Positions 20,659 to 37,650 of a stretch of DNA of 46,664 nt are shown here, one piece after another. The DNA is taken from IMG/VR virus record IMGVR_UViG_3300028610_000664, positions 1 through 46,664 of that record; one strand, 5' to 3'. A program made the translations under genes and the position numbers. The stretch is from a virus. A model generated the notes under the pieces. That model searched no databases. It was not told the origin of the DNA and saw only the letters and a program-made list of their open reading frames with translations. Numbering within the stretch: the first letter of the stretch is position 1; every line of letters begins with the position of its first letter.

Positions 20659-20664
20659 GGCGGC

Positions 20665-20965: not shown

Positions 20966-20980
20966 GTACAGGAGAAAACC

Positions 20981-21532: not shown

Positions 21533-21539
21533 GAGAATG

Positions 21540-21566
21540 AGCCTCGCTTCGGCGGGGCTTTCTTTT
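21540..21566 (+). terminator. rho-independent terminator
   Basis: AGCCTCGC pairs with GCGGGGCT around a TTCG tetraloop, followed by TTCTTTT. It closes the first early transcription unit. Confidence 0.85.
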
Positions 21567-22768: not shown

Positions 22769-22779
22769 CCTGACGATAC

Positions 22780-22796
22780 TTACACAGCCTGTGTAA
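22780..22796. repeat. dyad 3 (TTACACAGCCTGTGTAA)
   Basis: An exact copy in the gap upstream of the 22848 gene, 51 bases before its ATG. A repeated CTGACGAT/TTGACGATACT sequence flanks it. Confidence 0.85.
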
Positions 22797-22847
22797 CTTT
22801 GCGGGCTGAAACCTGACGATTAACTTGACGATACTAGGAGAAGAAAG

Positions 22848-23330
22848 ATGAACATCAAACGATTCAATTGGCTCATGGTGGCAGGACTGGTGGTGGTCGT
22901 TATCATCGCCGCCCGCGCTATCCCCCACGACACGACTGACCCAGAGGGAGGACGCAGCGGCCTGTCTCTTTATATAGATGAACTGACAGGATGCCAGTAC
23001 ATCCGGGTTGGCTTCTTCACCAAGCTCACGCCACGTTTAGACGAGAACGGTGCGCACCTATGTAAAGGTGACGAGCAACGCTGGCAGGATTACTACGCCC
23101 GGCAAGCGAAGGAGCAAGCCGAACGTGACGCAGAGGAGGCAAGGTACAACGCCCTGACTCTTGAGGAACGAAGGGCAGAGAACAAAGCGAAGGCCGACGC
23201 CCGCCGCCAACTCAGAGAACTACTGGCAGAGAAAGCCAGAAGGCTTGAGATAAAGAATGAGCGTGAACGCTGCGCCAAAATGCCCGAGTCACTGAGGGAG
23301 TACGCGAATTGTGGTGACGCCAATGATTAG
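22848..23330 (+). CDS. membrane-anchored coiled-coil protein
   Basis: The 160-residue product has one N-terminal membrane segment (residues 9-23, rich in Val and Ile) and a long charged helix in its second half (QAKEQAERDAEEARYNALTL onward) that should form a coiled coil. AGGAG precedes the ATG. The layout resembles inner-membrane spanins, but the early position argues against lysis. No family was recognised. Confidence 0.6.
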   Translation: MNIKRFNWLMVAGLVVVVIIAARAIPHDTTDPEGGRSGLSLYIDELTGCQYIRVGFFTKLTPRLDENGAHLCKGDEQRWQDYYARQAKEQAERDAEEARYNALTLEERRAENKAKADARRQLRELLAEKARRLEIKNERERCAKMPESLREYANCGDAND

Positions 23331-23460
23331 GCAGCAACCACCGTGGGGGCCGGGCAACACGCGCCAGCCTTGTCCGTGTCCTCACCTGCGATCAGGCAAG
23401 GAACAGAAGATCGACGAGAGTGGCAAATGTGCCAGATGTAAAACACAAAGGAGCAAATGA
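23323..23460 (+). CDS. 45-residue zinc-ribbon-like protein
   Basis: This small frame overlaps both neighbours by a few bases (previous stop, next ATGA). The cysteines CPCPH and CARC, about 19 residues apart, could bind zinc. The tight coupling supports it as a real gene. Confidence 0.55.
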   Translation: MIRQQPPWGPGNTRQPCPCPHLRSGKEQKIDESGKCARCKTQRSK

Positions 23461-23729
23461 AAATGTTGGACTTAGTTTACCTATTGATCTGTACAACAGG
23501 ACTCGTACCCGATCCGGAACATTGCGCGGTGTACGAGCTGCGCCCGCAGTACGAAATGACTCAAGCAATGATTGACGAGAAGGTTGATCGTATCTGTGAA
23601 ATGGCTTATGAAGCGACAGCCAAGTATGACGGTCAACTCACCAAGTGTGAAGTGATCGACGAGGACGAGAAGTTTGAGTTCGACGCGACCGGGTCGCGCT
23701 TCTTCCCGGTACCAACCACATCGATATAA
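23457..23729 (+). CDS. small hypothetical protein
   Basis: The 90-residue product has AAAGGAG upstream of its ATG. It starts with a hydrophobic stretch (LDLVYLLICTTGLV), possibly a signal or anchor, followed by an acidic soluble part with four cysteines in all. No family was recognised. Confidence 0.5.
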   Translation: MKMLDLVYLLICTTGLVPDPEHCAVYELRPQYEMTQAMIDEKVDRICEMAYEATAKYDGQLTKCEVIDEDEKFEFDATGSRFFPVPTTSI

Positions 23730-23730
23730 C

Positions 23731-23747
23731 TTACACAGCCTGTGTAA
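23731..23747. repeat. dyad 4 (TTACACAGCCTGTGTAA)
   Basis: An exact copy ending 16 bases before the ATG at 23764, with AAGGAG between, the same arrangement as dyads 1 and 6. Confidence 0.85.
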
Positions 23748-23763
23748 CTTCAAGGAGAACAGC

Positions 23764-24234
23764 ATGAACATCACCCTTATACTCACCATTGCGGTGGGCG
23801 TTATCATCGGCGGGCTTGTCCTAGTGCATCGGGACTGGATTGGCCGACAATCCCTCGCGCTTACATTGCTGCTGGCAAGAGCAATTGCACGCGGTGCTTA
23901 CGTGGCACGTTGGTACATTGGTGCGTGCATTGTAGTGAGTGCGTTTGTCCTTTGGTTTGCCATGACGCGGCCAGAGCATAGCCCCGGACAGTGGTGGGCA
24001 AATCAACTTGTTAAGTCTGCGTTCATTGGCCATTGCCAAGACAAAGGTGGCACATACAGTTCTGGCGATGGGAACTACTTCTATTGCTTTGAGAGAGCGT
24101 ACACAAAAGACGTAAAGCTTAGATGGTCATGGGCATACAGCCGGTCAGGTTGCAGGCTGACTACCTATAACTACCCCGACATGTCCGCTGCCACTGAGCA
24201 TTACACCGAGCCACTGTGCAAGGACGCACGATGA
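23764..24234 (+). CDS. two-pass membrane protein
   Basis: The 156-residue product starts at ATG 23764 behind AAGGAG. It has two membrane segments (about residues 3-20 and 47-66) and a cysteine-containing C-terminal domain of about 85 residues (CQDKGGTYSSGDGNYFYC) that would face one side of the membrane. No family was recognised. Confidence 0.6.
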   Translation: MNITLILTIAVGVIIGGLVLVHRDWIGRQSLALTLLLARAIARGAYVARWYIGACIVVSAFVLWFAMTRPEHSPGQWWANQLVKSAFIGHCQDKGGTYSSGDGNYFYCFERAYTKDVKLRWSWAYSRSGCRLTTYNYPDMSAATEHYTEPLCKDAR

Positions 24235-24488
24235 CCTACACCGAAGAAGAATTCATTGCGTGTCTGCTAGTGAATGGGTGGGTCAAGTCCCACGACTACG
24301 ACAACAGCCAGATGACATATTGGCAACAGGTTGATGTGTGGTTCAAAGGGACTTGGCCCGATCGATGGGCGTGTTCCGATGCTGGTTCACGTGACACCAC
24401 ACGTGGGCAAATGGAATTCAAGATACAGTTCTGGAGTTGGGGCAGAGAGATATTCGACGGCACTGTGCCCCCACCAGTACTCCCTTAA
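24231..24488 (+). CDS. small hypothetical protein
   Basis: The 85-residue product is coupled to the upstream gene by ATGA. The start TYTEEEFIACLLVNGW resembles the start of the next gene's product (EVEFAACLLEIGG), and both are Trp-rich, so the two may be related. No family was recognised. Confidence 0.5.
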   Translation: MTYTEEEFIACLLVNGWVKSHDYDNSQMTYWQQVDVWFKGTWPDRWACSDAGSRDTTRGQMEFKIQFWSWGREIFDGTVPPPVLP

Positions 24489-24499
24489 GGAGCGTTATC

Positions 24500-24736
24500 A
24501 TGCGCGACCCACGTGAAGTAGAGTTCGCAGCGTGCCTACTTGAGATAGGTGGGCCACCGCTGCTCATGGTTAAGAGCGACGGTGTGCTTGTGTCAAAGAC
24601 TGGCTACATGTTTACCGCATCACGATGGTATGAGAGGCACATCGAGCCACCACCAACAACGCCGGGGGAGACTACGCGGTTCACCAGTTGGTGGTTGGCG
24701 TACAAGCAATGGATATGGGAGAACCGTCATGCCTGA
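24500..24736 (+). CDS. small hypothetical protein
   Basis: The 78-residue product starts at ATG 24500, which overlaps a GTTATCA motif, with AAGGAG eight bases upstream. The N-terminus (EVEFAACLLEIGGPPLL) recalls both neighbours (EEFIACLLVNGW and EADFLAFLTYAGPPPI), so these three genes may be diverged tandem copies. Confidence 0.5.
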   Translation: MRDPREVEFAACLLEIGGPPLLMVKSDGVLVSKTGYMFTASRWYERHIEPPPTTPGETTRFTSWWLAYKQWIWENRHA

Positions 24737-25094
24737 CTGGCCACACATCAAGGACATAGGCGGCCACAAAACACTACAGACGTTTGCGGAAGCTGACTTT
24801 CTCGCATTCCTAACGTATGCCGGGCCGCCACCAATTGAGAAAGAAGGGGAGTTGTACCGCACGACAATGCTGCGCCAGCGAATTAAATACATTCAGTTGG
24901 CAGATAACTTCTGTTGCTCATACTTCGGTGACCCCGAGACTTGTCAGGAGTATGCAGACTACATCGGATTCTACGGCAAGTTCATCGAGTGGCACGCTTG
25001 CAAAATAGCTATTGCAGTTCCAGACCCTACGCTATTCGTGGAGTCTGATGTTTGTGTATATAAATGGAGAAAGGCACATGAACGAAAGAAATGA
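24729..25094 (+). CDS. small hypothetical protein
   Basis: The 121-residue product overlaps the upstream stop by eight bases. Its start contains EADFLAFLTYAGPPPI, similar to the products of the two preceding genes. The remainder is helical and aromatic-rich. No family was recognised. Confidence 0.5.
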   Translation: MPDWPHIKDIGGHKTLQTFAEADFLAFLTYAGPPPIEKEGELYRTTMLRQRIKYIQLADNFCCSYFGDPETCQEYADYIGFYGKFIEWHACKIAIAVPDPTLFVESDVCVYKWRKAHERKK

Positions 25095-25341
25095 CATGAG
25101 GTACGAGAACCAACTTAAGTTCGACCAGATGATTGCCTACATTGCAAAGTCAGAGCATTGCAAGACGGACGAGGATTGGGACGAACTGGTTGACAACATG
25201 CGTGCGTTAATCACACCACGCGGCACGATGAACAGGCAATTGCTTTTGTCCACCGTGTTCCAACAATGGAGCCGCGAACACTTCAAGAAAATTCTCGCGT
25301 CTTCGCAACGACACTTTGCAAAAAAGGAGAAAGGAAAATGA
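25078..25341 (+). CDS. small hypothetical protein
   Basis: The 87-residue product starts at ATG 25078 with GGAGAAAGG upstream. It is highly charged and helical with a basic C-terminus (QRHFAKKEKGK). It overlaps the next gene by ATGA. No family was recognised. Confidence 0.5.
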   Translation: MNERNDMRYENQLKFDQMIAYIAKSEHCKTDEDWDELVDNMRALITPRGTMNRQLLLSTVFQQWSREHFKKILASSQRHFAKKEKGK

Positions 25342-25814
25342 ATCAGCGATTCGAAGATACATTGGTTAGGGCTTTAGATTCGATTGCAGGTATGTCAAGA
25401 GACTACCGAGTGCTGGAAGAAAGAAACCGGCTGGCATTCAAGAAGCTACAGGAGCAGGACGAAACCATTCTCAAGCTGACCCGGATGCTGAACGAACCGG
25501 CAGATTGTGAGGACTGTCCGCACCAGCACCCCGAGTACCGCGAAGCAAGGTTCGCATTGATTGACGGTGCAACGTTATCATCGTTGCCCGGCCCCTTCTG
25601 CAAATGGCTGGAAGGTGAACGGAGGGCTGAGCGTGAGGATTCAGACATAGACCTTGCAGTTGGCATGGGTGGACAGTCATTCACTCAAGATGCATGGGAG
25701 AAAGAGCAAGGCTACCCATTCGCCTCTGCGCCCAAGGCCCCACGGTGCTATGACACGTACTTTGATGTGACGTGCTGGCGGTGGGTTCACAACACGGTGA
25801 GGATATTCGGATGA
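25338..25814 (+). CDS. coiled-coil protein with possible zinc site
   Basis: The 158-residue product begins with a helical heptad region (residues 5-50, YRVLEERNRLAFKKLQEQDE) and then has CEDCPHQH, a possible metal site. The second half resembles part of a soluble domain with no recognised family. It is coupled on both sides by ATGA overlaps. Confidence 0.5.
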   Translation: MNQRFEDTLVRALDSIAGMSRDYRVLEERNRLAFKKLQEQDETILKLTRMLNEPADCEDCPHQHPEYREARFALIDGATLSSLPGPFCKWLEGERRAEREDSDIDLAVGMGGQSFTQDAWEKEQGYPFASAPKAPRCYDTYFDVTCWRWVHNTVRIFG

Positions 25815-25945
25815 TCCGGCTACCTGTGTACATACTGTCGTTCACGATCATGTGTGCGGCAGCAATCGAGGGACAATGGGCGTGGGTTATCGTGCTTGCA
25901 GCGGTGACCTACGCCATACTCCCCCCTAAAGTAACAGGAGAATAA
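25811..25945 (+). CDS. 44-residue membrane peptide
   Basis: The ATG overlaps the upstream stop. Almost the whole peptide is hydrophobic, with two short membrane stretches (PVYILSFTIMCAAA and WVIVLAAVTYAIL) joined by EGQW. It could be a holin-like or host-membrane-modulating peptide; there is no direct evidence. Confidence 0.5.
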   Translation: MIRLPVYILSFTIMCAAAIEGQWAWVIVLAAVTYAILPPKVTGE

Positions 25946-25946
25946 C

Positions 25947-26129
25947 GTGGAACCTTTTATTATTGTAATGGTGGCATTCATGGTGTGGTTTGTCGTGGGC
26001 ATCGTAGAGATACTGATCGACCACTTCTCAACACACTACTTTTCAATTGGGCTGTGCAACAAGGTGCGGATCACGCTGGCTGTTGTAATCATGGGATGCC
26101 TTGTCGCCTACTGTGGGGTGACGACATGA
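25947..26129 (+). CDS. 60-residue membrane protein
   Basis: The product starts with GTG behind AGGAGAATAAC. It has two membrane segments (residues 4-24 and 42-56). It forms a run with the membrane proteins on either side and overlaps the next gene by ATGA. Confidence 0.55.
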   Translation: MEPFIIVMVAFMVWFVVGIVEILIDHFSTHYFSIGLCNKVRITLAVVIMGCLVAYCGVTT

Positions 26130-26494
26130 GCTACCACCCCCGGCACGACAAGCACATACCCTCGCATCTTTGGAAGCATGTAAAGGTGTGGCGGGCAGAG
26201 GATGAACTACGGGCGAAGGCTCGCAGAGCCAGACAGTTGTTTAAGTGGAGCGTTATCATCGCGGCCCTGTGTGCAGCACTGTTGTACCTGGGTTTGATCG
26301 CCAGTGTGTACGAGCATTCAGTATCGCACACGCCCAGCGTGCTGCCAGTGGAGACGGTAGCTCGCTTCATGGGAATACCGAGACGGCTGTGCGACAACAC
26401 AAAGTCTCACCGAGTGTGGGCTGAGTGCATGGGTGTCGGGTACAGGGACAATGCAACTGATCGATACTTATATACGCATCGCGAAGATGACTGA
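26126..26494 (+). CDS. single-pass membrane protein
   Basis: The 122-residue product starts at ATG 26126. It has a basic cytoplasmic N-terminus (about 40 residues, Arg- and His-rich), one membrane segment (residues 43-62) and an outer domain with two cysteines. No family was recognised. Confidence 0.55.
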   Translation: MSYHPRHDKHIPSHLWKHVKVWRAEDELRAKARRARQLFKWSVIIAALCAALLYLGLIASVYEHSVSHTPSVLPVETVARFMGIPRRLCDNTKSHRVWAECMGVGYRDNATDRYLYTHREDD

Positions 26495-26510
26495 GTAAAC
26501 CAACCATGAC

Positions 26511-26527
26511 TTGCACAGCTTGTGTAA
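26511..26527. repeat. dyad 5 (TTGCACAGCTTGTGTAA, degenerate)
   Basis: This copy has two changes from the consensus. It lies 62 bases before dyad 6 in the same gap, so the pair could bind a regulator cooperatively or form one larger RNA fold. Confidence 0.7.
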
Positions 26528-26588
26528 GGTTTGGGCGGCGCTGCCTTTATTGGCATGGGTCTTTCTCCTGCCCACCGCTGCCCGAATC

Positions 26589-26605
26589 TTACACAGGCTG
26601 TGTAA
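26589..26605. repeat. dyad 6 (TTACACAGGCTGTGTAA)
   Basis: A perfect dyad with central G, ending 16 bases before ATG 26622, with GGGAG in between. Confidence 0.85.
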
Positions 26606-26621
26606 GTTTAGGGAGAATGAA

Positions 26622-26795
26622 ATGTGTAAAGCAATGGACGACCTCAAGGCCGAGAACAAAAGGCTGAGAGTTTTACTCCGAGCTAAAGACGCAAGAATAG
26701 TTGCGGCGCTTGGCCGGATTGGGCACATCGAACGCCGCTGCCATGCTCTTAGACGGTGGCTTGTTCCTGTAGTTAAGGGGAAGAATGGTGAATGA
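26622..26795 (+). CDS. small coiled-coil protein
   Basis: The product has 57 residues from ATG 26622 behind GGGAG. A frame open to 26511 would translate through the dyads and is less likely. The first 40 residues form a basic leucine-zipper-like helix (DDLKAENKRLRVLLRAKDAR). DNA or RNA binding is possible. Confidence 0.5.
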   Translation: MCKAMDDLKAENKRLRVLLRAKDARIVAALGRIGHIERRCHALRRWLVPVVKGKNGE

Positions 26796-26979
26796 CATGA
26801 AGCAGGACAAAGTAGGTGTCACGAAGAAGCTACTGGATATGATCTTGGGTGCGCCCAAGGCCCACACTCCCCCACCACCGCTGAACCGAAAGACTCGCCG
26901 GTACATGGGGGCAATGCAACAGAAACGCAACGCAGCACCAAGGCGTAGAAAATATGAGGGCCGTGGTGTTAAGCGATAA
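26785..26979 (+). CDS. small basic protein
   Basis: The 64-residue product is very basic towards the C-terminus (NAAPRRRKYEGRGVKR). ATG 26785 or 26797 may be the start. The 14-base element at 26850 encodes part of its proline-rich middle. No family was recognised. Confidence 0.45.
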   Translation: MVNDMKQDKVGVTKKLLDMILGAPKAHTPPPPLNRKTRRYMGAMQQKRNAAPRRRKYEGRGVKR

Positions 26980-27496
26980 CCTCAGACGGAAATTACATGA
27001 GCTTTCAAAGAGCATGTACAACAACTCACGCACCGAGGAGTTCTTCAATTGGCAGGAAGAATTTGAGGAGTGTGCCAAGTACATTAACCGCGTAGTTAGA
27101 GAGGAGAAAGAATCAATGCTACTGTTTCCGGACATGAGGAGAGAGCAGTACGAGGGCAATGACAATTTTGTTTTTGCCGCACCCTGCACCAAAGTGGAGT
27201 GGGACTACCTGCACAGCAAATCCGTGCAGGAGGAACACTACTTACCCTACATCTTTATGAAGGATGACCCCGACGATGTAACTTGTCTAGTCCTTCGCCT
27301 TCCCGAAATAACTGACGAACAAGCTGTCACAACCGCCGCATGGATACGTGTATCTGAGGAGTACACCGGCATGATTTACGCTGTGAGCTTCGAGTCAGTC
27401 CCTTCCGTACAATCGTTATCATCAATCGTAGCCCGTACCGCTGGCTGCAACCCCAAGCAAGTTAAACACATAGAAATCAACAGGAGTAATGTATGA
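26954..27496 (+). CDS. hypothetical protein upstream of the MoxR gene
   Basis: The 180-residue product overlaps the previous gene by 26 bases and the MoxR gene by ATGA. It is acidic with a helical N-terminal half (FFNWQEEFEECAKYINRVV) and a beta-rich C-terminal half (YTGMIYAVSFESV). Coupling to the MoxR gene suggests it may belong to that module. No family was recognised. Confidence 0.6.
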   Translation: MRAVVLSDNLRRKLHELSKSMYNNSRTEEFFNWQEEFEECAKYINRVVREEKESMLLFPDMRREQYEGNDNFVFAAPCTKVEWDYLHSKSVQEEHYLPYIFMKDDPDDVTCLVLRLPEITDEQAVTTAAWIRVSEEYTGMIYAVSFESVPSVQSLSSIVARTAGCNPKQVKHIEINRSNV

Positions 27497-28578
27497 ACCT
27501 AGCACAAGCAAAGAAGCTAATCATCAAGCTGTTCCACCGTCAGATTGAAACTGGCGAGCGATTCAGTATCGAGCTAGTCTCTGGCCCCGGCATGGGGAAA
27601 TCAGAAGGCATAGCACAAGTGGCGCACGAACTGGCCACGTTACCGACAGACAAAGGTGGACTAGGCGAGCCTTGCGGCTTCCTACCATTCTTCCTGAGTA
27701 CGAAAGAAGCACCGGACATTGGCGGCTTCGGATTACCGGGCAAGGACGTTGACGGCACCCCCATCATGCGCTTCACGAAAGCACCGTGGATGCCCCGCAA
27801 AGGCGCACCCGCACACGGCATCGTGTTCCTTGATGAATTCCGTCAGTCCAACCATGATGTGCAGAAGCCTTCCGCTGAACTGCTACTCAACGGTCAGGTA
27901 GGTGAGTCCAAGCTACCTATTACGTGGATGGTAATCGCCGCGTCCAACCGAGAGAAGGACAGGTCAGGTGTGCAACGTGAACTCGCCTTCGTTGCCAACA
28001 GACGTATGGAAATTAAAATCGAGCCAAACCTGGATGCGTGGGTTCATTGGGCAGAGGTCAAGGCCATCCATTGGGCCGCAGTTGCGTTCGCCAAGCATCA
28101 ACCCGGCCTGATCTTTCGCGAGGATATTCCTGAGAAGTCTGGCCCATTCTGCACACCCCGATCATTCGTGAAAATGTCTCACATGATTGGTGAGCTTGAA
28201 ATGGAAATGTTTACCGAGGCCGCTGCAGGATTGATAGGCGAGGGAACCGCAGCACAATTCGTAGCGTTTCTACGAGTGGTTGAGCAGCTTCCGTCATTCG
28301 ACGAGATCATTGCCGACCCAAAGAAGTGCAGGACGCCCGAGACGGATCGCCCAGATGCACAGTACGCAACTATGCAGATGATCGCACACAGGGTGGACGA
28401 TGACACAGCTACACCAGCATTCACTTACCTCAAGCGTATGCCGAAAGAGTTTCAAGTGGCTGGCCTGAAGGCGACGTTGCGACGGTGTCCCGCTGTGTTA
28501 CGCAGCAAAGACTTTAGCTCATGGGTGCGAGACAACAAGGACTTGCTGGTTAACGCGAACCTTCTCGACGCTTCGTGA
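27493..28578 (+). CDS. MoxR-type AAA+ ATPase
   Basis: The 361-residue protein has Walker A GPGMGKS (residues 31-37), Walker B IVFLDEF (D114, E115), a sensor 1 region MVIAASNREKD and a following arginine-rich LAFVANRRMEIKI segment. These identify a MoxR-branch AAA+ remodelling ATPase. MoxR enzymes typically act with VWA-domain proteins, and one is encoded downstream at 30756-31937 in the same operon. Its partner and substrate are unknown. Confidence 0.85.
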   Translation: MNLAQAKKLIIKLFHRQIETGERFSIELVSGPGMGKSEGIAQVAHELATLPTDKGGLGEPCGFLPFFLSTKEAPDIGGFGLPGKDVDGTPIMRFTKAPWMPRKGAPAHGIVFLDEFRQSNHDVQKPSAELLLNGQVGESKLPITWMVIAASNREKDRSGVQRELAFVANRRMEIKIEPNLDAWVHWAEVKAIHWAAVAFAKHQPGLIFREDIPEKSGPFCTPRSFVKMSHMIGELEMEMFTEAAAGLIGEGTAAQFVAFLRVVEQLPSFDEIIADPKKCRTPETDRPDAQYATMQMIAHRVDDDTATPAFTYLKRMPKEFQVAGLKATLRRCPAVLRSKDFSSWVRDNKDLLVNANLLDAS

Positions 28579-28796
28579 ACCCGCATACACACAGCGGTGG
28601 GTTTCCTATCTTCCTAGTGGAGTCGAAGCTTTACCGCTGTGAGTGTGGATTCGAAAAAATGCTAGATACAAATCACTACCACGAATGCTACCCCTACTGC
28701 ATTGCATGTCAGAGGCAGTCAACGTGGAAGTGCCGAGAGTTAGATTTTGACATTATAATTAAACGAGTAGAGGAGCAAGACAATGCCCGACAATGA
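28575..28796 (+). CDS. small zinc-finger-like protein
   Basis: The 73-residue product starts with GTG overlapping the MoxR stop by four bases. It carries CECGF, HYHECYPYCIAC and a further Cys, so one or two zinc ribbons are likely. It sits between the ATPase gene and the next module gene. Confidence 0.55.
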   Translation: MNPHTHSGGFPIFLVESKLYRCECGFEKMLDTNHYHECYPYCIACQRQSTWKCRELDFDIIIKRVEEQDNARQ

Positions 28797-30144
28797 CTTT
28801 GACGATATATCCAGCCTGTTACAAGATGTGCTGGACGATAAGCCGGTAGAGATACCTGCTGACACGCCCGCTGACCCCTTCAAAGCGAAGGGTGATCCGG
28901 TAACTGCCAACCAACCGGAAGAACCAGAGCCGGACGATGGCGACATCCTTGGGGACTTCCTCAATGACATAGTAGAGGAGGAAGCTACACCAATACCGTT
29001 ATCACCGATCGATGAAGCGGTCGATGAGGCGGTGGCAGAAGTTGAGGCCGTGATCGAGGAGGCAACGGAGGAATCTTACACAGCCTGTGTAAGTTCTGAT
29101 GGTCTGTCAACCGCCGATGTTGTGGCGGGGATAGACGCGGAGCAACTAGAAGCCGCTGCGCCCGAGGCCCCACAGACCGCTGAGCATGTGTTCGCAGAGC
29201 CAGTAGAGAAGGCGGCGGTGCCAATGCCCACGTTCACTACGGACGAGCTGACGGAGAGCATTGACATACGCAACTTCGCTACCTTGGTCACGTTGAACAC
29301 GCAACGGTGGCACGCAAAGGCCAAGGACAGGAAAGCTGCGCTTGACGCTGCCGACGCCGCTGGTGCGGACAAGGACGCGTTCGATGCCCGTAAGAAATTG
29401 CTCGCGGGCTGCGACACTGAGCTTCGGGCTGTGCATAAAGAGATTGACAATGCACGTGCTGAGCATTACAGGCTCACCATGCCGTGGTCAAGCATCGGGC
29501 TTAACGATGTTGGCAAGCGAGCGGGTGGGAGGCTGATGCCGAACACGTTGTTCCTTGATTACACCACAGCTATGGCAAGGTGCAAGGCAGCAATGGAGGC
29601 CAAGCTCACTGAGTTCGAGACAAAGTACCCGAGCTTGATCGCCATTGCACAACAGAAGTTAGGTACTGCATTCGATCCTTCCCAGTACCCGAACCCGTCA
29701 AGCATACGCCAGCACTTCACGCTGAGCTTTGACTTCAACCCGATCCCTGTCGGCTCCGACTTCAAGGGACTACAGCAAGCACAGGTAGAGAAGCTGGGTG
29801 CTGCGCTGAACAGAAAGACGCGGGTGATGTTGGAGAATGCAATGCAGGATGTGTGGAAGAATCTCTACGAGACTGTAGCCCACGCGTATGCAAGGCTGAA
29901 TACTCCGGGTGCGATGTTCCATGCATCGTTGATCGACAAGCTGCGCGATCAGGCCGAGCTTATGAAACACCTGAATGCAACTGGTGACAAGAACATTGCA
30001 CAGGTGGCTAATCTGATCAGTGGTGATCTGATTAAGTTCGACCCGAAAGACATTCGCAAGGACGACGCATTGCGTAAGCGACTCGCCGACTATGCCAAGA
30101 AGGTGGTTGACTTCATGGAGGGCGTAGCGAATGCCAGCCCCTAG
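28783..30144 (+). CDS. helical protein of the MoxR/VWA module (DUF3150-like?)
   Basis: In the 453-residue protein the first 150 residues are acidic and probably disordered. The rest is helical, with two coiled-coil stretches around RKAALDAADAAGADKDAFDA and KELEK-type repeats near the C-terminus. A protein of this type often sits between a MoxR ATPase and a VWA protein in phages (I recall DUF3150), but that match is only by context and general character. Dyad 7 lies inside its acidic N-terminal coding part. Confidence 0.5.
   Translation: MPDNDFDDISSLLQDVLDDKPVEIPADTPADPFKAKGDPVTANQPEEPEPDDGDILGDFLNDIVEEEATPIPLSPIDEAVDEAVAEVEAVIEEATEESYTACVSSDGLSTADVVAGIDAEQLEAAAPEAPQTAEHVFAEPVEKAAVPMPTFTTDELTESIDIRNFATLVTLNTQRWHAKAKDRKAALDAADAAGADKDAFDARKKLLAGCDTELRAVHKEIDNARAEHYRLTMPWSSIGLNDVGKRAGGRLMPNTLFLDYTTAMARCKAAMEAKLTEFETKYPSLIAIAQQKLGTAFDPSQYPNPSSIRQHFTLSFDFNPIPVGSDFKGLQQAQVEKLGAALNRKTRVMLENAMQDVWKNLYETVAHAYARLNTPGAMFHASLIDKLRDQAELMKHLNATGDKNIAQVANLISGDLIKFDPKDIRKDDALRKRLADYAKKVVDFMEGVANASP
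29076..29092. repeat. dyad 7 inside a coding region (TTACACAGCCTGTGTAA)
   Basis: An exact copy within the 28783-30144 gene, where it encodes part of a disordered acidic segment (SYTACVSS). It shows that the element spreads or is kept independently of gene boundaries. Confidence 0.85.
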
Positions 30145-30763
30145 GTGGGAGAACCACAGTTCTGCGTGGAGCCGCACATTCAATTTTCGAAGCAAGGGCA
30201 AGAAAACTTGGTTGAGTGATGCCAACTGCCCTATACGGATGCGCGGTTATACCGAGCTTCGGCTAGGCGACCTCGATGCAAAGTTGCGTAAGAAGATTGA
30301 CACCGCTTTGCGTCGGGGCTATGCCTTGGAACGTAACTCACAATTGCGTCCTATGCTGGACATGCTTGAGAAAGTCCAGCCCGAACAGATGCTACCTATC
30401 GGCTACGTGGGCAAGACCGAGCTAACCCTTTTCCTCGCCACTGAGGATGAGGCCGACGACTTACAGAAGGAGTTGAACGCCAACACTGTAATGACCGAGG
30501 CTTTCAGAGGGAGCAGGATTAGGGTCAGGAAGGGCCGCGATGGTTGGTGGCTAGTTCAGGTAGACCTGTACAAACCAAGGGGCGCAAGAGGGAACACGAA
30601 GCACATGGCCCCATGCTTTACACAACTGCGCGTAACAATAGATGAATGGATGAAACCCGATGCCTCTATACGAGAGGAGTTCGCCCGATGGTGCGCTGAG
30701 GACAACAAGGTTATTAGGATTCCATTCGACTCACACTTAAAACGAGGAGTAGATAATGAGTGA
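30131..30763 (+). CDS. basic hypothetical protein of the MoxR/VWA module
   Basis: The 210-residue protein is strongly basic and lies between the helical protein and the VWA protein, overlapping both by 8-14 bases. It contains LRKKIDTALRRGYALERNS and a beta-rich GWWLVQVDLYKPRG segment. No family was recognised; the position suggests a module component. Confidence 0.55.
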   Translation: MPAPRWENHSSAWSRTFNFRSKGKKTWLSDANCPIRMRGYTELRLGDLDAKLRKKIDTALRRGYALERNSQLRPMLDMLEKVQPEQMLPIGYVGKTELTLFLATEDEADDLQKELNANTVMTEAFRGSRIRVRKGRDGWWLVQVDLYKPRGARGNTKHMAPCFTQLRVTIDEWMKPDASIREEFARWCAEDNKVIRIPFDSHLKRGVDNE

Positions 30764-31937
30764 TGACAGCCATCCGTTATACACGGAAGTAAAAACAGCA
30801 ATGCTGTTACATGTACCCTTCTTTGCCAGCATCCTGCTAGACATGATGACGGTTAAGATAGGGAAGTTCCCCGATGTATTCGGGAGCAGGACACCCACCG
30901 CAGCAACTAACGGTAAGACCGTTTGGTTTGACAAAGACTTCTTTGAGAAGATGAAGCTGCCCGAGCGTGTGTTCGTCCTCTGCCATGAGATTGGCCACGC
31001 GATGTGGTCACACATGTCCAGAGGCAAGCACTACTTTGATGCAGGATTCGAGGGCGAGAAGTTTGACCCTGGTAGGTGGAACAGGGCGGGCGATTACGTT
31101 ATCAACGATATGCTTGTCAAGTGTAACGTGGGCAAGATGCCCCAATGTGGCCTGCATGACCCGAGCAAGTACACATCCGAAATGCTTGTCGATGATGTGT
31201 ACCGCGATCTTAAGGACGATCCTGACGACGGTGAAGGAGCTGGGCAGGGAGAGGGCGGCTCGCTGGATCACCACATCCTTGAGATAGGTAGCACAAGCGA
31301 GGTTGAATGGAAACGGGCAGTACAGACCGCTGCCGATGCCGCCAAATCACAGGGTAAGCTCCCCGCTGACCTTAAGCGGTTCGTCGAGGAACTATTGAAC
31401 CCCAAGGTGCCGTGGACTGAGAAGCTACGTAGCAGCCTCACACGCTGCGCTGGGCGTGACTCCACTACTTGGTCAAAGCCCCACAGGCGGCGACTCATTA
31501 CCCAAGGCATTGTGATGCCGAGCTATACCGGGTTTGCTTCGGGCCACATCGTGTTCGTAGTCGATACCTCAGGGAGCATGTCTCAAGATGAAATGGCACA
31601 GGGGTTGAGTGAGTGTGACGCCATTCTCTCCGACTGCCAGCCAGAGGCGGTTACTCTGATAGGCTGTGACGCACGTGTGAACAGCCGACTTGAGCTTTAC
31701 TCAGGTGACTCGCTGGCCGATGACCCACCCCCATTAGGCGGTGGCGGTGGCACATCTTTTGTCCCGCCTTTCGATCTTTTGGCCGAAGAAGGGATCGTCC
31801 CTGCCTGTCTGGTGTACTTCACAGACATGATGGGAACCTTCCCCGATGATCCGGGCTATCCAGTGATCTGGTGTTCGACAAGTGAGAAGCACGAAGGCCC
31901 ATTCGGGGAGACAATCTACGTTGAGCTTGACGAGTGA
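30756..31937 (+). CDS. metallopeptidase-like/VWA protein (DUF2201 type)
   Basis: The 393-residue protein fuses two domains. The N-terminal part has a zinc-protease motif HEIGHAMWSH (H77, E78, H81), typical of the putative metallopeptidase domain of DUF2201 proteins. The C-terminal part is a von Willebrand A-like domain with a perfect MIDAS start DTSGSMS (D270-S274) and a later TDMMG aspartate. MoxR ATPases commonly act on VWA partners, so the ATPase at 27493 probably works with it. The target is unknown. Confidence 0.8.
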   Translation: MSDDSHPLYTEVKTAMLLHVPFFASILLDMMTVKIGKFPDVFGSRTPTAATNGKTVWFDKDFFEKMKLPERVFVLCHEIGHAMWSHMSRGKHYFDAGFEGEKFDPGRWNRAGDYVINDMLVKCNVGKMPQCGLHDPSKYTSEMLVDDVYRDLKDDPDDGEGAGQGEGGSLDHHILEIGSTSEVEWKRAVQTAADAAKSQGKLPADLKRFVEELLNPKVPWTEKLRSSLTRCAGRDSTTWSKPHRRRLITQGIVMPSYTGFASGHIVFVVDTSGSMSQDEMAQGLSECDAILSDCQPEAVTLIGCDARVNSRLELYSGDSLADDPPPLGGGGGTSFVPPFDLLAEEGIVPACLVYFTDMMGTFPDDPGYPVIWCSTSEKHEGPFGETIYVELDE

Positions 31938-32614
31938 GCCGCCGTTATCATCGCGGGCCTGTCGGCAAGGGTGGCATGGTTGGTGATCCTTCCTCACGCA
32001 TGTTCGCACTTGCTAAGGAGCTGTTGTGGCGTCAACGGCAAATCTACCCTTTCCCCTGCGATCAAGAGGAAGTGCTGCTCTCGCTGTTCCCCACAGAAAT
32101 GCAGGATACGGTGCTGACTGATGACGTTAGGTTCGCGTGGAATAATCTTACACACTGTGTAAGTACGGGAACCTCCTGCATCATAGAACTGGATGGTGTA
32201 ACGGGCAAGGCGTTCTGGATGCGCTTTGACAACCCGGTGCCTGTCCCGATGAACGCCGAGGCGTTTACGTTGCCAAGCGTCAGTCCTCATTACAGTGAGG
32301 TCTACAACTGGTGGCACAAAGCTATGGAGATTCATTCGGAGTTGAGCGAGTACGAGAAAGCTGTGTGGACATTCATACAGAAGGCGTGCCACCCGTTGCT
32401 TGTGGAAATGTATTGGCCAGAGCTACACACGTTCGTTGACTTCAAGTTATCCCCTAGTCAGGCGCTAAACCCGATGCTCCTCAACAAGAGACGTGTCGTA
32501 CCCATGCCCACCGCCGCTCAAAGCGATGGGATCATTCAAACCCTAGCAGCCAGTACGCTGCTCCCCCCACATGTATGCACAGCGTGGGTGGACTACGAAG
32601 TGGAGGAAGCATAA
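31934..32614 (+). CDS. hypothetical protein, possible paralogue of the next gene
   Basis: The 226-residue product is coupled to the VWA gene by a four-base overlap, so it may belong to the module. Near its end it has YWPELHTFVDFKLSP, which resembles VWPELLPFMDSESK in the next gene's product. Dyad 8 lies inside its coding region. No named family was recognised. Confidence 0.55.
   Translation: MSRRYHRGPVGKGGMVGDPSSRMFALAKELLWRQRQIYPFPCDQEEVLLSLFPTEMQDTVLTDDVRFAWNNLTHCVSTGTSCIIELDGVTGKAFWMRFDNPVPVPMNAEAFTLPSVSPHYSEVYNWWHKAMEIHSELSEYEKAVWTFIQKACHPLLVEMYWPELHTFVDFKLSPSQALNPMLLNKRRVVPMPTAAQSDGIIQTLAASTLLPPHVCTAWVDYEVEEA
32148..32162. repeat. dyad 8 inside a coding region (TTACACACTGTGTAA)
   Basis: This is a shortened copy with intact TTACACA/TGTGTAA arms and one central base; the inner G and C of the full element are missing. 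It lies in the 31934-32614 gene. Confidence 0.75.
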
Positions 32615-33351
32615 TGTCTTTTACTCTCCAGTTCAGAAATTCATTCCCACGCGAAATGCAAGGGAAGTTTGAAGTATATTGGCACTTGATGCACCCTCAG
32701 ACAATCGATCGCGCAGATATTTATCGGTGGGGGTGGGACGATGAAGAATGGAATGCGTTGAAACTGTTGGAGAGACGACGGAGTGACGTAATCTGCTCGG
32801 CTTCTCAATGGCAGGAGTGGACTTTCACCATGCACTTCGGTGGGAAGTACCCCGAGTATGTGCCAAACCATGCGAAGCTTGGATACAAATGCGCCAAAGG
32901 CAAGCCGGTTATAAACGTAAAAGAAACCGATCTGCCCGACGCACTGAGGGATGAACTGCGATTGTGGATCATCGAAGCATTCAGGTATCAGCGGCTTTCG
33001 TTTCAACTGCTGCGACAGTTAAATGCCCTGCTCGCTGTGCAGCGGGAAAAAGCTCCGGGGACAAATCGCTACGGTCGAACTGTATGGAAGAACGACTCAC
33101 AGTGCAAAGGGATATGCAACACGACCAGTACGCTGTACGCGGTGTGGCCCGAACTTCTACCGTTCATGGACTCAGAGTCAAAGGCCACGTTGCGCCACAG
33201 GAAAATGCGTACTTCCCTGCCGCGTGTGTGGGACGAAGATGACCTAAAAGAATTCCATGCGGTGGAGGGCATGGACGAATTAACAGAAGCACTCAGCACC
33301 ATGTCACTCATACCCAATGAGAAAGACAAATACTATCCTAGTCTGAATTAG
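32614..33351 (+). CDS. hypothetical protein, last gene of the first early operon
   Basis: The 245-residue product starts at ATG 32614, sharing a base with the previous stop, and has TGGAGGAAGC upstream. Its C-terminal half contains VWPELLPFMD and RKMRTSLPR, resembling the previous gene's product. The dyad and terminator directly after it mark the end of the transcript. No named family was recognised. Confidence 0.6.
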   Translation: MSFTLQFRNSFPREMQGKFEVYWHLMHPQTIDRADIYRWGWDDEEWNALKLLERRRSDVICSASQWQEWTFTMHFGGKYPEYVPNHAKLGYKCAKGKPVINVKETDLPDALRDELRLWIIEAFRYQRLSFQLLRQLNALLAVQREKAPGTNRYGRTVWKNDSQCKGICNTTSTLYAVWPELLPFMDSESKATLRHRKMRTSLPRVWDEDDLKEFHAVEGMDELTEALSTMSLIPNEKDKYYPSLN

Positions 33352-33368
33352 TTACACAGGCTGTGTAA
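33352..33368. repeat. dyad 9 (TTACACAGGCTGTGTAA)
   Basis: A perfect dyad between the stop of the 32614-33351 gene and the terminator at 33374. It is the rightmost copy found. Confidence 0.85.
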
Positions 33369-33373
33369 CTTTG

Positions 33374-33400
33374 GCCCTCGCTTCGGCGGGGGCTTTTTTT
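33374..33400 (+). terminator. strong rho-independent terminator
   Basis: GCCCTCGC pairs with GCGGGGGC around a TTCG tetraloop (one G-T wobble) and is followed by seven T. It separates the module operon from the replication operon and is almost the same as the terminator at 21540. Confidence 0.9.
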
Positions 33401-33403
33401 GTC

Positions 33404-33433
33404 TTGCGGTGTGATCTCCGAGTGTGTTATTAT
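33404..33433 (+). promoter_or_regulatory. possible rightward promoter of the replication operon
   Basis: TTGCGG and TATTAT are 18 bases apart, directly after the terminator and ahead of the 33457 gene. The right end overlaps a CGCCCACTTA sequence shared with the leftward promoter boxes, so the site may be regulated in a similar way or may work in the other direction. Confidence 0.45.
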
Positions 33434-33456
33434 CGCCCACTTACAAGAGAGGCCAC

Positions 33457-33735
33457 ATGGGTCTAGTTAGAAAAATCCTAATGCTGTTCGGGCGGCAATA
33501 CGTCATGCTGCGGTATGGCAATAAACAATCCTTCCGTATCCAACACGCTTACTGTATTGCTGGTCACTGGTATGTCAAGGGCGCAGATGGGGGTACTCAT
33601 TTCATGCTCACTAACAGCATACGTGTTACCAACCCCGACAAACCTCACTTCGACCCCGGCACGATGGTGTCCTCTAATGACCTCTGGATACCTGTTACGA
33701 AGCGAGTTGATGCAGGGGTCAGAATGTATGGCTAG
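33457..33735 (+). CDS. small hypothetical protein
   Basis: The 92-residue product starts at ATG 33457 with AGAGAGG upstream. It is beta-rich and basic (FGRQYVMLRYGNKQSFRIQ). It is the first gene of the replication operon. No family was recognised. Confidence 0.55.
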   Translation: MGLVRKILMLFGRQYVMLRYGNKQSFRIQHAYCIAGHWYVKGADGGTHFMLTNSIRVTNPDKPHFDPGTMVSSNDLWIPVTKRVDAGVRMYG

Positions 33736-33774
33736 ACAGGCCGTTATCATAGGCGCTATCGGGCGGGAGTTTCC

Positions 33775-35625
33775 ATGGATTTGATTACGCTCGACTTCGA
33801 GACGTACTACGACAAAGACTTTGAGTTGTCGAAGATGCTCACAGAGGATTACATATGCGACGACCGATTCGAGATAATGATGGTCGGCCTAAAGTTAAAT
33901 GCGGAACCTTCAAAAGTTTTCAGTTTCCGTACGCTAGAAGAATACGACCAACTGTTCCGGGCTTGGAATCTCCGTGGAAATGCAATGGTGTGTCACCATA
34001 CAGCCTTCGATGGGCTGATTCTAGCTATCCGGTTCGGGATCATACCACCGATGCTCTTAGATACGCTTGGCATGGCGCAGGCATTATTAAAGCCGTACCT
34101 AAGGTCAGTTGGTTTGGCAAGCTGCTTGAAGCATTGCGACCTTGGAGTGCAAAAAGGTACATACGTGGGGAATATGAAAGGGCGTCGTCTTGCCTCTTTA
34201 TCCCCTACGGAGCTGGGAAAGTACGCCCGATACTGCGCGGACGACTGCGACGGGGAGTACGCTTTATTCCAACACCTTGTCAAACAACTGCCAAAGCAAG
34301 AACTAGAAATCATCGACATGACTTTGCGAATGTATTTGGAGCCGCAATTCCAACTGGACTTCGAAACACTGCAAGGCGTGTATGAGGACACCGTCAACAA
34401 AAAGGCCGAGTTGTTATCATCGTTGCCAACAGGTATTGACAAAAAAGATTTAATGTCTAACCCGAAGCTTGCTCAGATACTTGAGGGGTACGGAGTGATC
34501 CCCCCAATCAAAGTATCTCCCACAACTAACAAGCCTGCTTTCGCTTTTGCAAAGACCGACCCTGGTTGGAAAGATTTAGAAGATGAGTACGAGGACGACC
34601 CCCTGATAGCCCCTATCTTGGCTGCACGAACAGGTGTCAAGTCCACCCTGGCTGAGACGCGTGCGCTAAGGCTCATGGGCATCGCGAAGGATCACCCCAT
34701 GTTCAGGGTACCGCTGCGGTTCTACGCTGCTCACACCGGGCGGTACGGCGGCACGGAGAAGATCAATTGCCAGAACTTCACCCGCATCAAGCCCAAGCTT
34801 GGCCATAGGAGACAACTGCGGTATGCGGTCAAGGCCCCCAAGGGACACAGCGTGCTGGCTGCTGACCTCTCACAGATTGAGGTACGCATCAACGCATGGC
34901 TGTCAAATTGCTTGTCCTTGCTGTCTGCTTTCCGCACGGGGCGCGACCCCTACTGCGAGTTCGGCTCCAAGATATTTCACCGAGCGATCACCAAGGCTGA
35001 CGAGAAAGAACGGTTCATTGCCAAGACGTGTATCCTCGGCCTCGGCTATGGCATGGGGTGGAAGAAGTTGCAAGCGACGTTGCGGAAGGATGACGTTAGG
35101 CTGACCAACGAACAGGCTTATGATTACGTGAACATCTACCGTAATACATATAGAGAGATCACAGGCAACTGGAACCAATGCGGCACGGCCATCGAGATCA
35201 TCGCGCACGGTGGCAAGTTGCAGCTTGGCCCCTGCATGGCGGAGCATAACAAAATCCTCCTGCCCAATGGCATGGCGCTGGTGTACCACAACCTACGGTA
35301 CGTTGACTCGAAGAAGTATAAAGGCTGGACGTACGACTTCGGTGGCCAGGGTCGAACCTTGTGGGGCGGTACGATAATAGAAAACATTTGTCAAGCACTC
35401 GGACGGATAATTGTCATGGAGCAGATGCTTGCCATTAAGAAAGAGCTTGGGGTACGACCAGCGCTTCAAGCCCACGATGAATTAGTGTATGTTCTGCCAA
35501 CTCCACAGATCGCAGGATATGAGCAAGAGATTCTAAAGCTTATGAGAATTCCCCCCGGCTTCGCACCGGACTTACCAATTGATGCAGAGGCCAACCACGG
35601 CCCGACATATGGAGACGCAAAGTAA
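33775..35625 (+). CDS. family A DNA polymerase with 3'-5' exonuclease
   Basis: The 616-residue enzyme has an N-terminal exonuclease with Exo I DFETYYD at residues 7-13, HHTAFDG as an Exo II region, and an Exo III-like YCADDCDGEY. The polymerase part has motif A DLSQIEVR (D364), motif B RFIAKTCILGLGYG and motif C AHDELVYV (D568). No 5'-nuclease domain is present. The residue matching E. coli Pol I Phe762 is Leu421. It should be the replicative enzyme of the phage. Confidence 0.9.
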   Translation: MDLITLDFETYYDKDFELSKMLTEDYICDDRFEIMMVGLKLNAEPSKVFSFRTLEEYDQLFRAWNLRGNAMVCHHTAFDGLILAIRFGIIPPMLLDTLGMAQALLKPYLRSVGLASCLKHCDLGVQKGTYVGNMKGRRLASLSPTELGKYARYCADDCDGEYALFQHLVKQLPKQELEIIDMTLRMYLEPQFQLDFETLQGVYEDTVNKKAELLSSLPTGIDKKDLMSNPKLAQILEGYGVIPPIKVSPTTNKPAFAFAKTDPGWKDLEDEYEDDPLIAPILAARTGVKSTLAETRALRLMGIAKDHPMFRVPLRFYAAHTGRYGGTEKINCQNFTRIKPKLGHRRQLRYAVKAPKGHSVLAADLSQIEVRINAWLSNCLSLLSAFRTGRDPYCEFGSKIFHRAITKADEKERFIAKTCILGLGYGMGWKKLQATLRKDDVRLTNEQAYDYVNIYRNTYREITGNWNQCGTAIEIIAHGGKLQLGPCMAEHNKILLPNGMALVYHNLRYVDSKKYKGWTYDFGGQGRTLWGGTIIENICQALGRIIVMEQMLAIKKELGVRPALQAHDELVYVLPTPQIAGYEQEILKLMRIPPGFAPDLPIDAEANHGPTYGDAK

Positions 35626-35798
35626 TGAGCATAACAGTTGAGTGGATGCCCGACGAAGGCGCGTACATCGTGCGCCAAGATAGTGAGTTCATCGGTGATT
35701 TCGTAGACCTTCTCCCAGCGTGTGAGTTTGCCCTCGCCGTTTCCCATGGGTTTGCAGGATCGTATGTTGAGATCGTAGCGGTGAACGCTGATGCTTAA
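35625..35798 (+). CDS. small acidic protein
   Basis: The 57-residue product starts one base into the polymerase stop (TAATG) and overlaps the next gene by eight bases. It is acidic and beta-rich (WMPDEGAYIVRQDSEFIGDF). The tight overlaps support translation. No family was recognised. Confidence 0.55.
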   Translation: MSITVEWMPDEGAYIVRQDSEFIGDFVDLLPACEFALAVSHGFAGSYVEIVAVNADA

Positions 35799-36114
35799 CA
35801 ACTTCCCTACAGCACCCGAGGTCAAATGGATCGCTGGCAACCAGCCGAGCGAAATGCGGCTTGAAATATCAATGCCGCCAGTCACAGTACCGAACAAATG
35901 TGAAGACTTACTTTTCAAGCTTGGCTGGATGGAGCGTACCTGCGACCCGGACACTCAGGAGTCTCTTTATTATAAGCCCCCGCCACAGGACGCCGAGGAA
36001 AAAGTCAGGCAGGGCTGGGACTACGACTTGCAGAATGGCTACTGGCACTGGTACGAAGCTATGGCCTACGAGTTCGGCAAGTTCATGTCGATAGGGGATG
36101 ACAGTCATGGATGA
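35791..36114 (+). CDS. hypothetical protein
   Basis: The 107-residue product is acidic with an aromatic-rich C-terminus (WDYDLQNGYWHWYEAMAYE). It overlaps both neighbours by eight bases. No family was recognised. Confidence 0.5.
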   Translation: MLNNFPTAPEVKWIAGNQPSEMRLEISMPPVTVPNKCEDLLFKLGWMERTCDPDTQESLYYKPPPQDAEEKVRQGWDYDLQNGYWHWYEAMAYEFGKFMSIGDDSHG

Positions 36115-36346
36115 CAAGATTGTTCAGTTTCAGCCGCCGACCGTCGCTGAGAATATAATTCAGTCTTTGGTCGATTCAGATCGAGGGGAAGACGAAGAAC
36201 TGTATGTACTACGTGCGTACAGAGACGAGGATGGTGTGCGTCAACTTCAATGGTTCACAACTGAGTGTGAGTCGAAGGTCTGGTCGGTCGGTGCGCTGCA
36301 CTATGTCGCGCACAGGTTAATGGAGTGGGAAAACGATGAAGAATAA
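36107..36346 (+). CDS. small acidic protein
   Basis: The 79-residue product starts at ATG 36107 behind AGGGGAT. It is acidic (SLVDSDRGEDEELYVLRAY, then EWENDEE). It overlaps the nuclease gene by 11 bases and may be its partner. No family was recognised. Confidence 0.5.
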   Translation: MDDKIVQFQPPTVAENIIQSLVDSDRGEDEELYVLRAYRDEDGVRQLQWFTTECESKVWSVGALHYVAHRLMEWENDEE

Positions 36347-37004
36347 ACCGTTTGCATGGTCATTCTCCGTGATTGACATGTTCGAGGTATGCGCCAAAAA
36401 GTTCTGGCACCTTAAGCGTGAGAAGGATTTTAAAGACGCTGACAGTAGCGCTGCTCGGGACGGGAAGTACGTCCACGAAGTAATGCGCAACCGTGTTATA
36501 GATGGCATCCCTCTCCCTATCGGAGTCAGGCCCTATGAAAAGATTGCGGCCCGGTTCGCTGACGCAGAGGGGGCTAAGCACGGCGAAATGAAACTCGCAC
36601 TGAATAAGAAATTCGAGCCGCGAGACTTCTTCGCCAAGGATGTATGGGTACGTGCCATCGTTGACTTGCTAATCGTTCGCGGTGACACAGCTATTATAGT
36701 GGACTGGAAAACTGGCAAGAAGAAAGAGCGATGGGATCAACTCAGGCTGGCGGCTGCGATACTGTCACGGTACATGCCTGAGATTAACCACTTCACACTG
36801 GTGTACGTATGGCTAAAAGATTCGGAGCTAAGCAAAGATACCATCGAGAAAGACGACCTCAAATCCGTCTGGATGGAATTTCTACCAAGGGTCAATGCTA
36901 TCGTGACCGCGATCAACGAGACGAATTTCCCGGCACAGAAATCGGGGTTATGCGGGTGGTGCCCTGTAGAGACATGTCCCCATTGGGTAGACAGGTCGCA
37001 ATGA
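36336..37004 (+). CDS. Cas4/RecB-like PD-(D/E)XK nuclease
   Basis: The 222-residue protein starts with SFSVIDMFEVCAKKFWHLK, the usual Cas4/RecB opening with its first cysteine. The nuclease core is in WVRAIVDLLIVRGD, AIIVDWKTGK and QLRLAAAILSRY. A C-terminal cluster (CGWC, C, CPHW) with the N-terminal cysteine could hold an iron-sulfur cluster. It probably trims or recombines phage DNA ends, or degrades host DNA. Confidence 0.8.
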   Translation: MKNKPFAWSFSVIDMFEVCAKKFWHLKREKDFKDADSSAARDGKYVHEVMRNRVIDGIPLPIGVRPYEKIAARFADAEGAKHGEMKLALNKKFEPRDFFAKDVWVRAIVDLLIVRGDTAIIVDWKTGKKKERWDQLRLAAAILSRYMPEINHFTLVYVWLKDSELSKDTIEKDDLKSVWMEFLPRVNAIVTAINETNFPAQKSGLCGWCPVETCPHWVDRSQ

Positions 37005-37306: not shown

Positions 37307-37650
37307 AAGAGTCCTATGTCAAGGAACGTGTCAAGAAGCTGCTGCTAAAGTACGGCGCTTACTATTTCATGCCTGTGCAGTCGGGGTACGGCGCGGCGGG
37401 GCTGGACTTCTACGGTAGTCACAAGGGCAGGTTCTTGGCCGTTGAAACGAAGCGGCCTGGGAAACACCTGACGCCCCGGCAAGAACTAATAAAAGAAGCA
37501 ATCGAGAAAGCGGGGGGTATAGTATTTATAGTTGGTGAGGCTGCGCATTACAAATCATATAAAGACAAAGCAACCGACCAGATCATGGAGAAGCTTGATA
37601 CGTTCTCAGGAATGGAAGCCCTCGAAGGGTGGTTACTGCTAGGCATATGA
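37282..37650 (+). CDS. VRR-NUC domain nuclease
   Basis: The 122-residue protein matches the small phage VRR-NUC proteins: GYGAAGLDFYGSHKGRFLAV followed by ETKRPGKHLTPRQELIKEA, with catalytic D, E and K in the GLDF...ETK arrangement. These are structure-specific (junction or flap) endonucleases. It is coupled to the SNF2 helicase gene by ATGA, so the two probably act together in recombination or replication-fork processing. Confidence 0.8.
   Translation: MRNDPRSIKESYVKERVKKLLLKYGAYYFMPVQSGYGAAGLDFYGSHKGRFLAVETKRPGKHLTPRQELIKEAIEKAGGIVFIVGEAAHYKSYKDKATDQIMEKLDTFSGMEALEGWLLLGI

Follow-up and report, generated by a model that had tools for sequence, protein, structure and literature searches.

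A putative AAA+ ATPase and metallopeptidase-VWA module with a third conserved protein, encoded beside the replication genes of a virus

The window analyzed here is the complete IMG/VR virus record IMGVR_UViG_3300028610_000664 (46,664 bases), and its subject is a tight rightward run of genes, B to H, at 27493-33351. The conserved core of this run consists of B, a predicted AAA+ ATPase, D, a remote DUF3150 protein, and F, which fuses a metallopeptidase-like domain to a VWA domain. The pairing of B with F is not new, as it is the gp24/gp25 family of phage N4 and belongs to the core of the Schitoviridae. To this our analysis adds the universal association of B with F, the recurrence of D as a third gene, the replication genes in the neighborhood, and a conservation of F and B that exceeds that of the polymerase.

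The gene run and its conserved pair

Structural genes of the window (portal/head-tail adaptor, terminase, tail fibre, and internal virion protein) lie within the leftward genes of its first 20 kb, while early and replication genes run rightward from approximately 21 kb onward. The features of the run and its surroundings, with the basis for each call (from the open reading frame, or ORF, list, profiles, structure models predicted with AlphaFold2, AF2, or homologues), are as follows.

26954-27496, plus strand: gene A, 180 aa, unassigned, fast-evolving accessory gene (ORF list)
27493-28578, plus strand: gene B, 361 aa, AAA+ ATPase, MoxR/midasin-like, the putative motor, N4 gp24 family (phrog_1297)
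28575-28796, plus strand: gene C, 73 aa, cysteine-rich, accessory (ORF list)
28783-30144, plus strand: gene D, 453 aa, remote DUF3150 protein, third core component (AF2, fold match, homologue)
30131-30763, plus strand: gene E, 210 aa, basic, accessory (ORF list)
30756-31937, plus strand: gene F, 393 aa, HExxH metallopeptidase-like domain plus VWA domain, N4 gp25 family (PF13203/PF09967)
31934-32614, plus strand: gene G, 226 aa, accessory (ORF list, homologues)
32614-33351, plus strand: gene H, 245 aa, accessory (sequence, ORF list, homologues)
33373-33394, plus strand: terminator-like hairpin with a T-run, directly 3' of H, near-copy at 21539-21560
33775-35625, plus strand: family-A DNA polymerase, context (PF00476, 2e-26)
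36336-37004, plus strand: RecB-like exonuclease, context (phrog_69, 9e-19)
37629-39203, plus strand: SNF2-type helicase, context (phrog_62, 5e-102; labelled 'SNF2 family helicase' in a Rhizobium phage relative)

A sequence-only reading of this DNA had described five genes coupled by overlapping starts and stops, encoding an ATPase, a zinc-finger-like protein, a large helical protein, a basic protein, and an HExxH-VWA protein. The ORFs of B, C, D, E, and F are all open at the positions first described, and their coordinates confirm overlaps of 4 to 14 nt (B/C 4, C/D 14, D/E 14, and E/F 8). G and H belong to the same rightward run and lie inside the same range; F overlaps G by 4 nt, and H begins at a revised start, an ATG sharing 1 nt with the stop codon of G. 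Upstream, the last 4 nt of gene A are shared with B. Most starts of the run are preceded by a GGAG-like ribosome site, those of C and G being without one.

The same reading had guessed that F was a DUF2201/VWA protein with complete catalytic motifs, and profile searches agreed. F matched PF13203 (DUF2201_N, putative metallopeptidase; 1.7e-35, 123.4 bits, cut-off 23.2) and PF09967 (DUF2201, VWA-like; 3e-19, 69.8 bits, cut-off 26.4), as well as phrog_1314 (1.3e-86, residues 4-391 on profile positions 10-392 of 394). Its N-terminal metallopeptidase-like domain contains H77, E78, H81, and H86 together with D113, and its C-terminal VWA domain contains a metal ion-dependent adhesion site (MIDAS) made up of D270, S272, S274, T333, and D357. 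All 79 full-length viral F homologues carry HExxHxxxxH in intact form as well as every part of the MIDAS (DxSxS, T, and D). In an alignment of 69 proteins, 31-80% identical to F of the window, all of these residues were invariant, along with N117, F335, T356, W372, and some glycines. By analogy to other zinc peptidases, the third zinc ligand may be either D113 or H86. F was predicted by AF2 with a pLDDT of 90.6, and its C-terminal part resembled VWA domains in a comparison to PDB folds (Z 12.7, rmsd 2.6 over 133 residues). The list of PDB folds was filled by the VWA domain, and the zinc peptidase part had no row of its own in it.

The family of F (phrog_1314) is labelled 'HNH endonuclease' in PHROGs and RefSeq, which is wrong. 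F of the window and five known phage homologues, among them gp25 of N4 (NC_008720; DUF2201_N 3e-87, DUF2201 1e-46), matched only DUF2201_N and DUF2201, and no HNH profile or family was found for them. For users of these databases, the label masks the peptidase-VWA nature of the protein.

B matched phrog_1297, annotated 'ATPase' (2.2e-68, residues 24-354 on profile positions 26-355 of 356), and had no Pfam match of its own at E<=1. A profile built from B and its relatives matched midasin in the PDB (8e-12) and also McrB. The homologue in Bacillus phage G (gp566; tblastn 6e-19) contains AAA_3 (8e-9, above cut-off), and the SBP1 homologue contains AAA_5, likewise above cut-off. Because of the midasin and McrB matches and the AAA_3 match of the phage G homologue, we assign B to the AAA+ ATPases of the MoxR/midasin kind and infer the narrower name MoxR. 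Among 74 B sequences, Walker A (GxGK) was present in 73, the sensor-1 Asn and the Arg finger in all 74, and the sensor-2 Arg in 73, while each acidic position of Walker B had its commonest form in 70. On a module of MoxR-type ATPase and VWA-metallopeptidase with complete motifs, the sequence-only reading was correct. Two related phages (loci L009 and L010) carry an Asn in place of the first Walker B Asp (FLNER) in an otherwise intact ATPase.

Distribution of the module and its third protein

A pattern scan of IMG/VR with the F alignment identified at least 564 relatives, and the 80 best entered the analysis. Because loci were ranked by how similar they are to the window, near relatives are over-represented in the resulting sample. 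F matched 400 of 50,697 phage records, the best being phages of Rhizobium, Thermus, Acinetobacter, Vibrio, and Pseudomonas; a megablast of the window against phages found no near relative. Among 83 distinct loci, B was present in all 59 viral F loci reaching 5 kb upstream, and the pair was encoded on one strand in 73 of 73 cases. At the ten loci without B, the sequence ends within 1.6 kb of F.

In a rapidly computed maximum-likelihood tree with 118 F proteins, phage-type F formed one set of 84 rows, including four bacterial contigs (SH-aLRT 97%), and outside it fell 33 cellular F proteins and that of Pseudomonas phage LIT1, a long row whose placement is uncertain. D was found alongside F in 46 of 81 viral tree rows, with B-D-F the commonest order. 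It was present in 22 of 22 rows of the window's own F branch and is spread across the phage set. When D was sought elsewhere in sixteen phage records without D beside F, none was found, in a search that had no internal positive control. A pattern search for D in cellular genomes also found none, and in cellular-branch pairs (Alishewanella, Marinospirillum, Blautia, and others) B adjoins F without D. Three bacterial contigs reached via F carry B-D-F, from Variovorax, an Armatimonadetes metagenome-assembled genome (MAG), and a gammaproteobacterial MAG (L107, L108, and L109). The Variovorax contig also contains exonuclease and helicase homologues, which suggests an integrated phage or provirus.

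D begins with a disordered acidic part followed by a helical/mixed core (approximately residues 150-453) predicted with a pLDDT of about 95 by AF2 with 44 homologues. A Foldseek comparison to viral models gave eight matches at E<=0.001, including a protein annotated 'DUF3150 domain-containing' (A0A6J7WV52; E 4.6e-16, TM 0.83 by target). The D homologue of locus L060 matched PF11348 at 27.7 bits, above the cut-off of 24.9, at 12688-13230 of its record and inside the D frame; seven further records had weaker matches under the cut-off. The sequence-only reading had proposed DUF3150 for the helical protein, and this stands in part: the predicted fold and the homologue above the Pfam cut-off argue for a remote DUF3150 protein, but D of the window itself has no DUF3150 match, since a direct profile search with it and its close relatives returned nothing at E<=1. 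D of the window also had no significant Pfam or PHROGs family. The candidate family phrog_1342 was rejected, as the match was weak and limited to one relative, and a PDB fold look-up produced only helical-bundle look-alikes (Z up to 8.9) and was uninformative. We found no paper mentioning DUF3150 in the searchable literature, nor a description in it of D as a conserved third component.

Within the disordered acidic N-terminus, at the start of D (28783-28870), a short motif is kept in many relatives, with ISSLLQDVLDDKP in the window and LLADILD-x-KPLP in relatives. It is possible that this is a docking motif for B or for the MIDAS.

The remaining genes, A, C, E, G, and H, evolve fast and are accessory genes of close relatives, to which C and E are limited. 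A has a homologue at 49-50% in locus L017, others being weaker. C has the cysteine pattern CxC...CxxxC..C and is possibly a zinc-binding protein; it had no significant Pfam or PHROG family, and a single homologue was found (L036). E has a net charge of +8 and homologues in L011, L033, L036, and L037 only. G sits between F and the polymerase in many relatives.

Related pairs also occur in bacterial chromosomes. In Marinospirillum celere (L111, 3753-11340), a MoxR/VWA pair related to B and F could be an uncharacterized bacterial system. Its neighbors are a WYL-domain protein and two further proteins, one of 613 aa that matches nothing in Pfam and one of 733 aa in which two regions match AAA. A conserved F-B pair, mostly in reversed order, is found in some thirty genomes of Lachnospiraceae and related bacteria, including Blautia (L144-L176).

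Gene neighborhood, conservation, and known relatives

To define the neighborhood independently of annotation, families around F were assigned by all-against-all BLAST. Of the six commonest, F came first with 66 loci, followed by the polymerase (59) and B (55), then a SNF2-type helicase (39), D (36), and a RecB-like exonuclease (34). A homologue of the polymerase, exonuclease, or helicase lies downstream in 49 of 58 loci. The commonest identified neighbors are thus replication genes and not structural ones.

Among nearest relatives, pN/pS was 0.18 for F, 0.21 for B, 0.31 for the D core, 0.33 for the polymerase, and 0.43-0.56 for A, E, G, and H, values that serve as a ranking only because synonymous sites are near saturation. 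The purifying selection on F and B argues that the module is not a chance arrangement. Amino acid identity to the nearest relative was 80% for F and 77% for B (a different relative), compared to 67% for the polymerase, so that F and B are better conserved than the polymerase. Correlations of protein distances (B-F 0.84, B-Pol 0.84, D-F 0.82, and D-Pol 0.76) single out no partner.

The hairpins at 33373-33394 and 21539-21560, both on the plus strand, are near-identical, with a 16-base common core CCTCGCTTCGGCGGGG, and flank approximately 12 kb of rightward early genes. Given its position directly after H and this near-copy, both identified by pattern matching, the hairpin at 33373-33394 is plausibly the end of the module transcript, with the polymerase opening the next one. 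An Rfam search of window positions 20000-37000 gave no match.

The sequence-only reading had treated the module as an isolated puzzle, which its replication-gene neighborhood and its published relatives no longer allow. gp24 and gp25 of N4 are in the core gene set of N4-like phages (PMC7650795) and are middle genes (PMC4193335), located in the middle-gene region ahead of the helicase, polymerase, exonuclease, and primase. As in the window, an AAA+ ATPase is followed by a DUF2201_N-DUF2201 protein on one strand, upstream of replication genes. Identity to the pair of the N4-like phage LIT1 is approximately 27-29%, and the LIT1 VWA protein is placed, with some uncertainty, on the cellular side of the tree. 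No published function of N4 gp24/gp25 was found.

The closest isolated-phage relative found was Rhizobium phage RHph_TM3_14A (F 34.7%, B 32.1%), in which the polymerase, RecB-like exonuclease, and SNF2 helicase follow in the same order. In this case, there is no recognizable D, and three small genes lie between B and F. The record of this phage (L002, 9925-9938) places an 'attL' site within the ATPase gene, which is an odd annotation.

A pair with the same two-protein architecture, a MoxR ATPase and an N-terminal metallopeptidase fused to vWA, was described in group 2.2 jumbo phages (PMC7824862), whereas the window module has D as a third protein and replication genes as neighbors. Another viral MoxR ATPase and VWA protein, p618 and p892 of Acidianus two-tailed virus (ATV), differs in lacking a peptidase domain, in being a virion component, and in its archaeal host. 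Cellular midasin, RavA-ViaA, CbbQ-CbbO, and bacterial DUF2201 pairs share the combination of a motor and a MIDAS partner, although D is absent beside cellular-branch pairs and midasin has both on one chain. CbbQ-CbbO is one of the MoxR-VWA pairs that remodel protein complexes. Other pairs of studied role, such as midasin and RavA-ViaA, do the same (several are reviewed in PMC7159879). Judged by sequence, what sets the present module apart appears to be that its clamp carries an intact peptidase motif and that a third protein, specific to phages, accompanies the pair.

Possible roles of the module

We favor, tentatively, the view that the module is a core phage machine for protein remodeling or processing that acts at the replication stage. 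B would assemble into an ATP-driven AAA+ ring, and the VWA domain of F would grip an acidic residue of the substrate or of D through its Mg-MIDAS, a division of labor (the ring pulls, the MIDAS holds) drawn from analogy with known MoxR-VWA machines. The zinc peptidase domain of F might then cut a segment exposed by B, and D may act as a third subunit specific to the phage branch, either as an adaptor or as dedicated substrate recognition. The early/replication stage is favored because the gene neighborhood points to it, and the target would most likely be a phage-encoded DNA-replication complex. In a more specific version, which we consider unlikely, B, F, and D would constitute an ATP-dependent protease of a new type, in which the ring feeds a zinc peptidase carried on a VWA clamp, with the DUF3150 protein as adaptor, in order to process a component of the replication complex. 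To our knowledge, no AAA+ protease of such a MoxR/peptidase-VWA build has been described.

Several observations weigh against a machine of the replication stage. The terminator-like hairpin parts the module from the polymerase, and neighborhood is not the same as function; in Bacillus phage G and the Vequintavirinae, the pair does not adjoin polymerase genes at all. D is missing from a 27-row sub-branch of the phage F set and is not recognizable in LIT1, so it is dispensable in some phages. For the jumbo-phage pair, a role in virion assembly was put forward by Iyer et al. (2021; PMC7824862). In roseophages, a 'second structural module' coding for virion proteins adjoins the gp24/gp25 homologues (PMC4193335). 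Moreover, p618 and p892 of ATV bind each other as well as virion proteins and have been assigned to tail development (PMC4124505). Virion assembly or maturation, in which the pair would be a chaperone and co-chaperone for tail or head parts and the peptidase would trim structural proteins, is kept alive by the roseophage and ATV data as the main rival, one we hold to be rather improbable but to be taken seriously. In the window and its relatives, however, the module lies in the half given to replication, with the structural genes on the other strand, and its commonest identified neighbors are replication genes; p892 also lacks the peptidase domain (PMC7824862).

The early/middle gene position and the intact peptidase motif would suit a machine that acts soon after infection by unfolding or cutting a protein of the host, and distantly related pairs in bacterial chromosomes make capture from hosts plausible. 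Nevertheless, slow evolution and conservation across phages of very different hosts fit a constant target of the phage's own better, and we regard host takeover as distinctly unlikely. A link to defence, raised in the sequence-only reading, recalls the MoxR-vWA ternary systems predicted to be conflict systems of multicellular prokaryotes (PMC7159879). None of the nine genes searched had a PADLOC match at E<=1, Pfam recognized no VMAP, iSTAND, FtsH, or propeller component, and the core occurs throughout its lineage, is strongly conserved, and evolves slowly, unlike patchy defence genes, which leaves a defence or counter-defence module very unlikely. That reading had also mentioned cofactor insertion, which would here mean a cobaltochelatase CobS/CobT that borrows host CobN for cobalamin. 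Such a role was proposed for AAA+/vWA pairs found in archaeal and other tailed viruses, where CobT is said to be often misannotated as a peptidase (PMC8651126). F, however, is DUF2201_N and DUF2201 along its length with HExxHxxxxH intact throughout its viral homologues, no CobT or chelatase profile supported the assignment (NCBIfam cobaltochelatase, E 0.28), and no ORF of the window is long enough for CobN, the largest being 952 aa. We therefore consider this role extremely improbable.

Few genes belong to the core of the entire N4-like family, and gp24 and gp25 are two of them; D, as a DUF3150 protein, offers a third handle on the module. Should the pair indeed be an ATP-driven machine for remodeling or proteolysis at the replication stage, it would represent a new kind of phage housekeeping factor.

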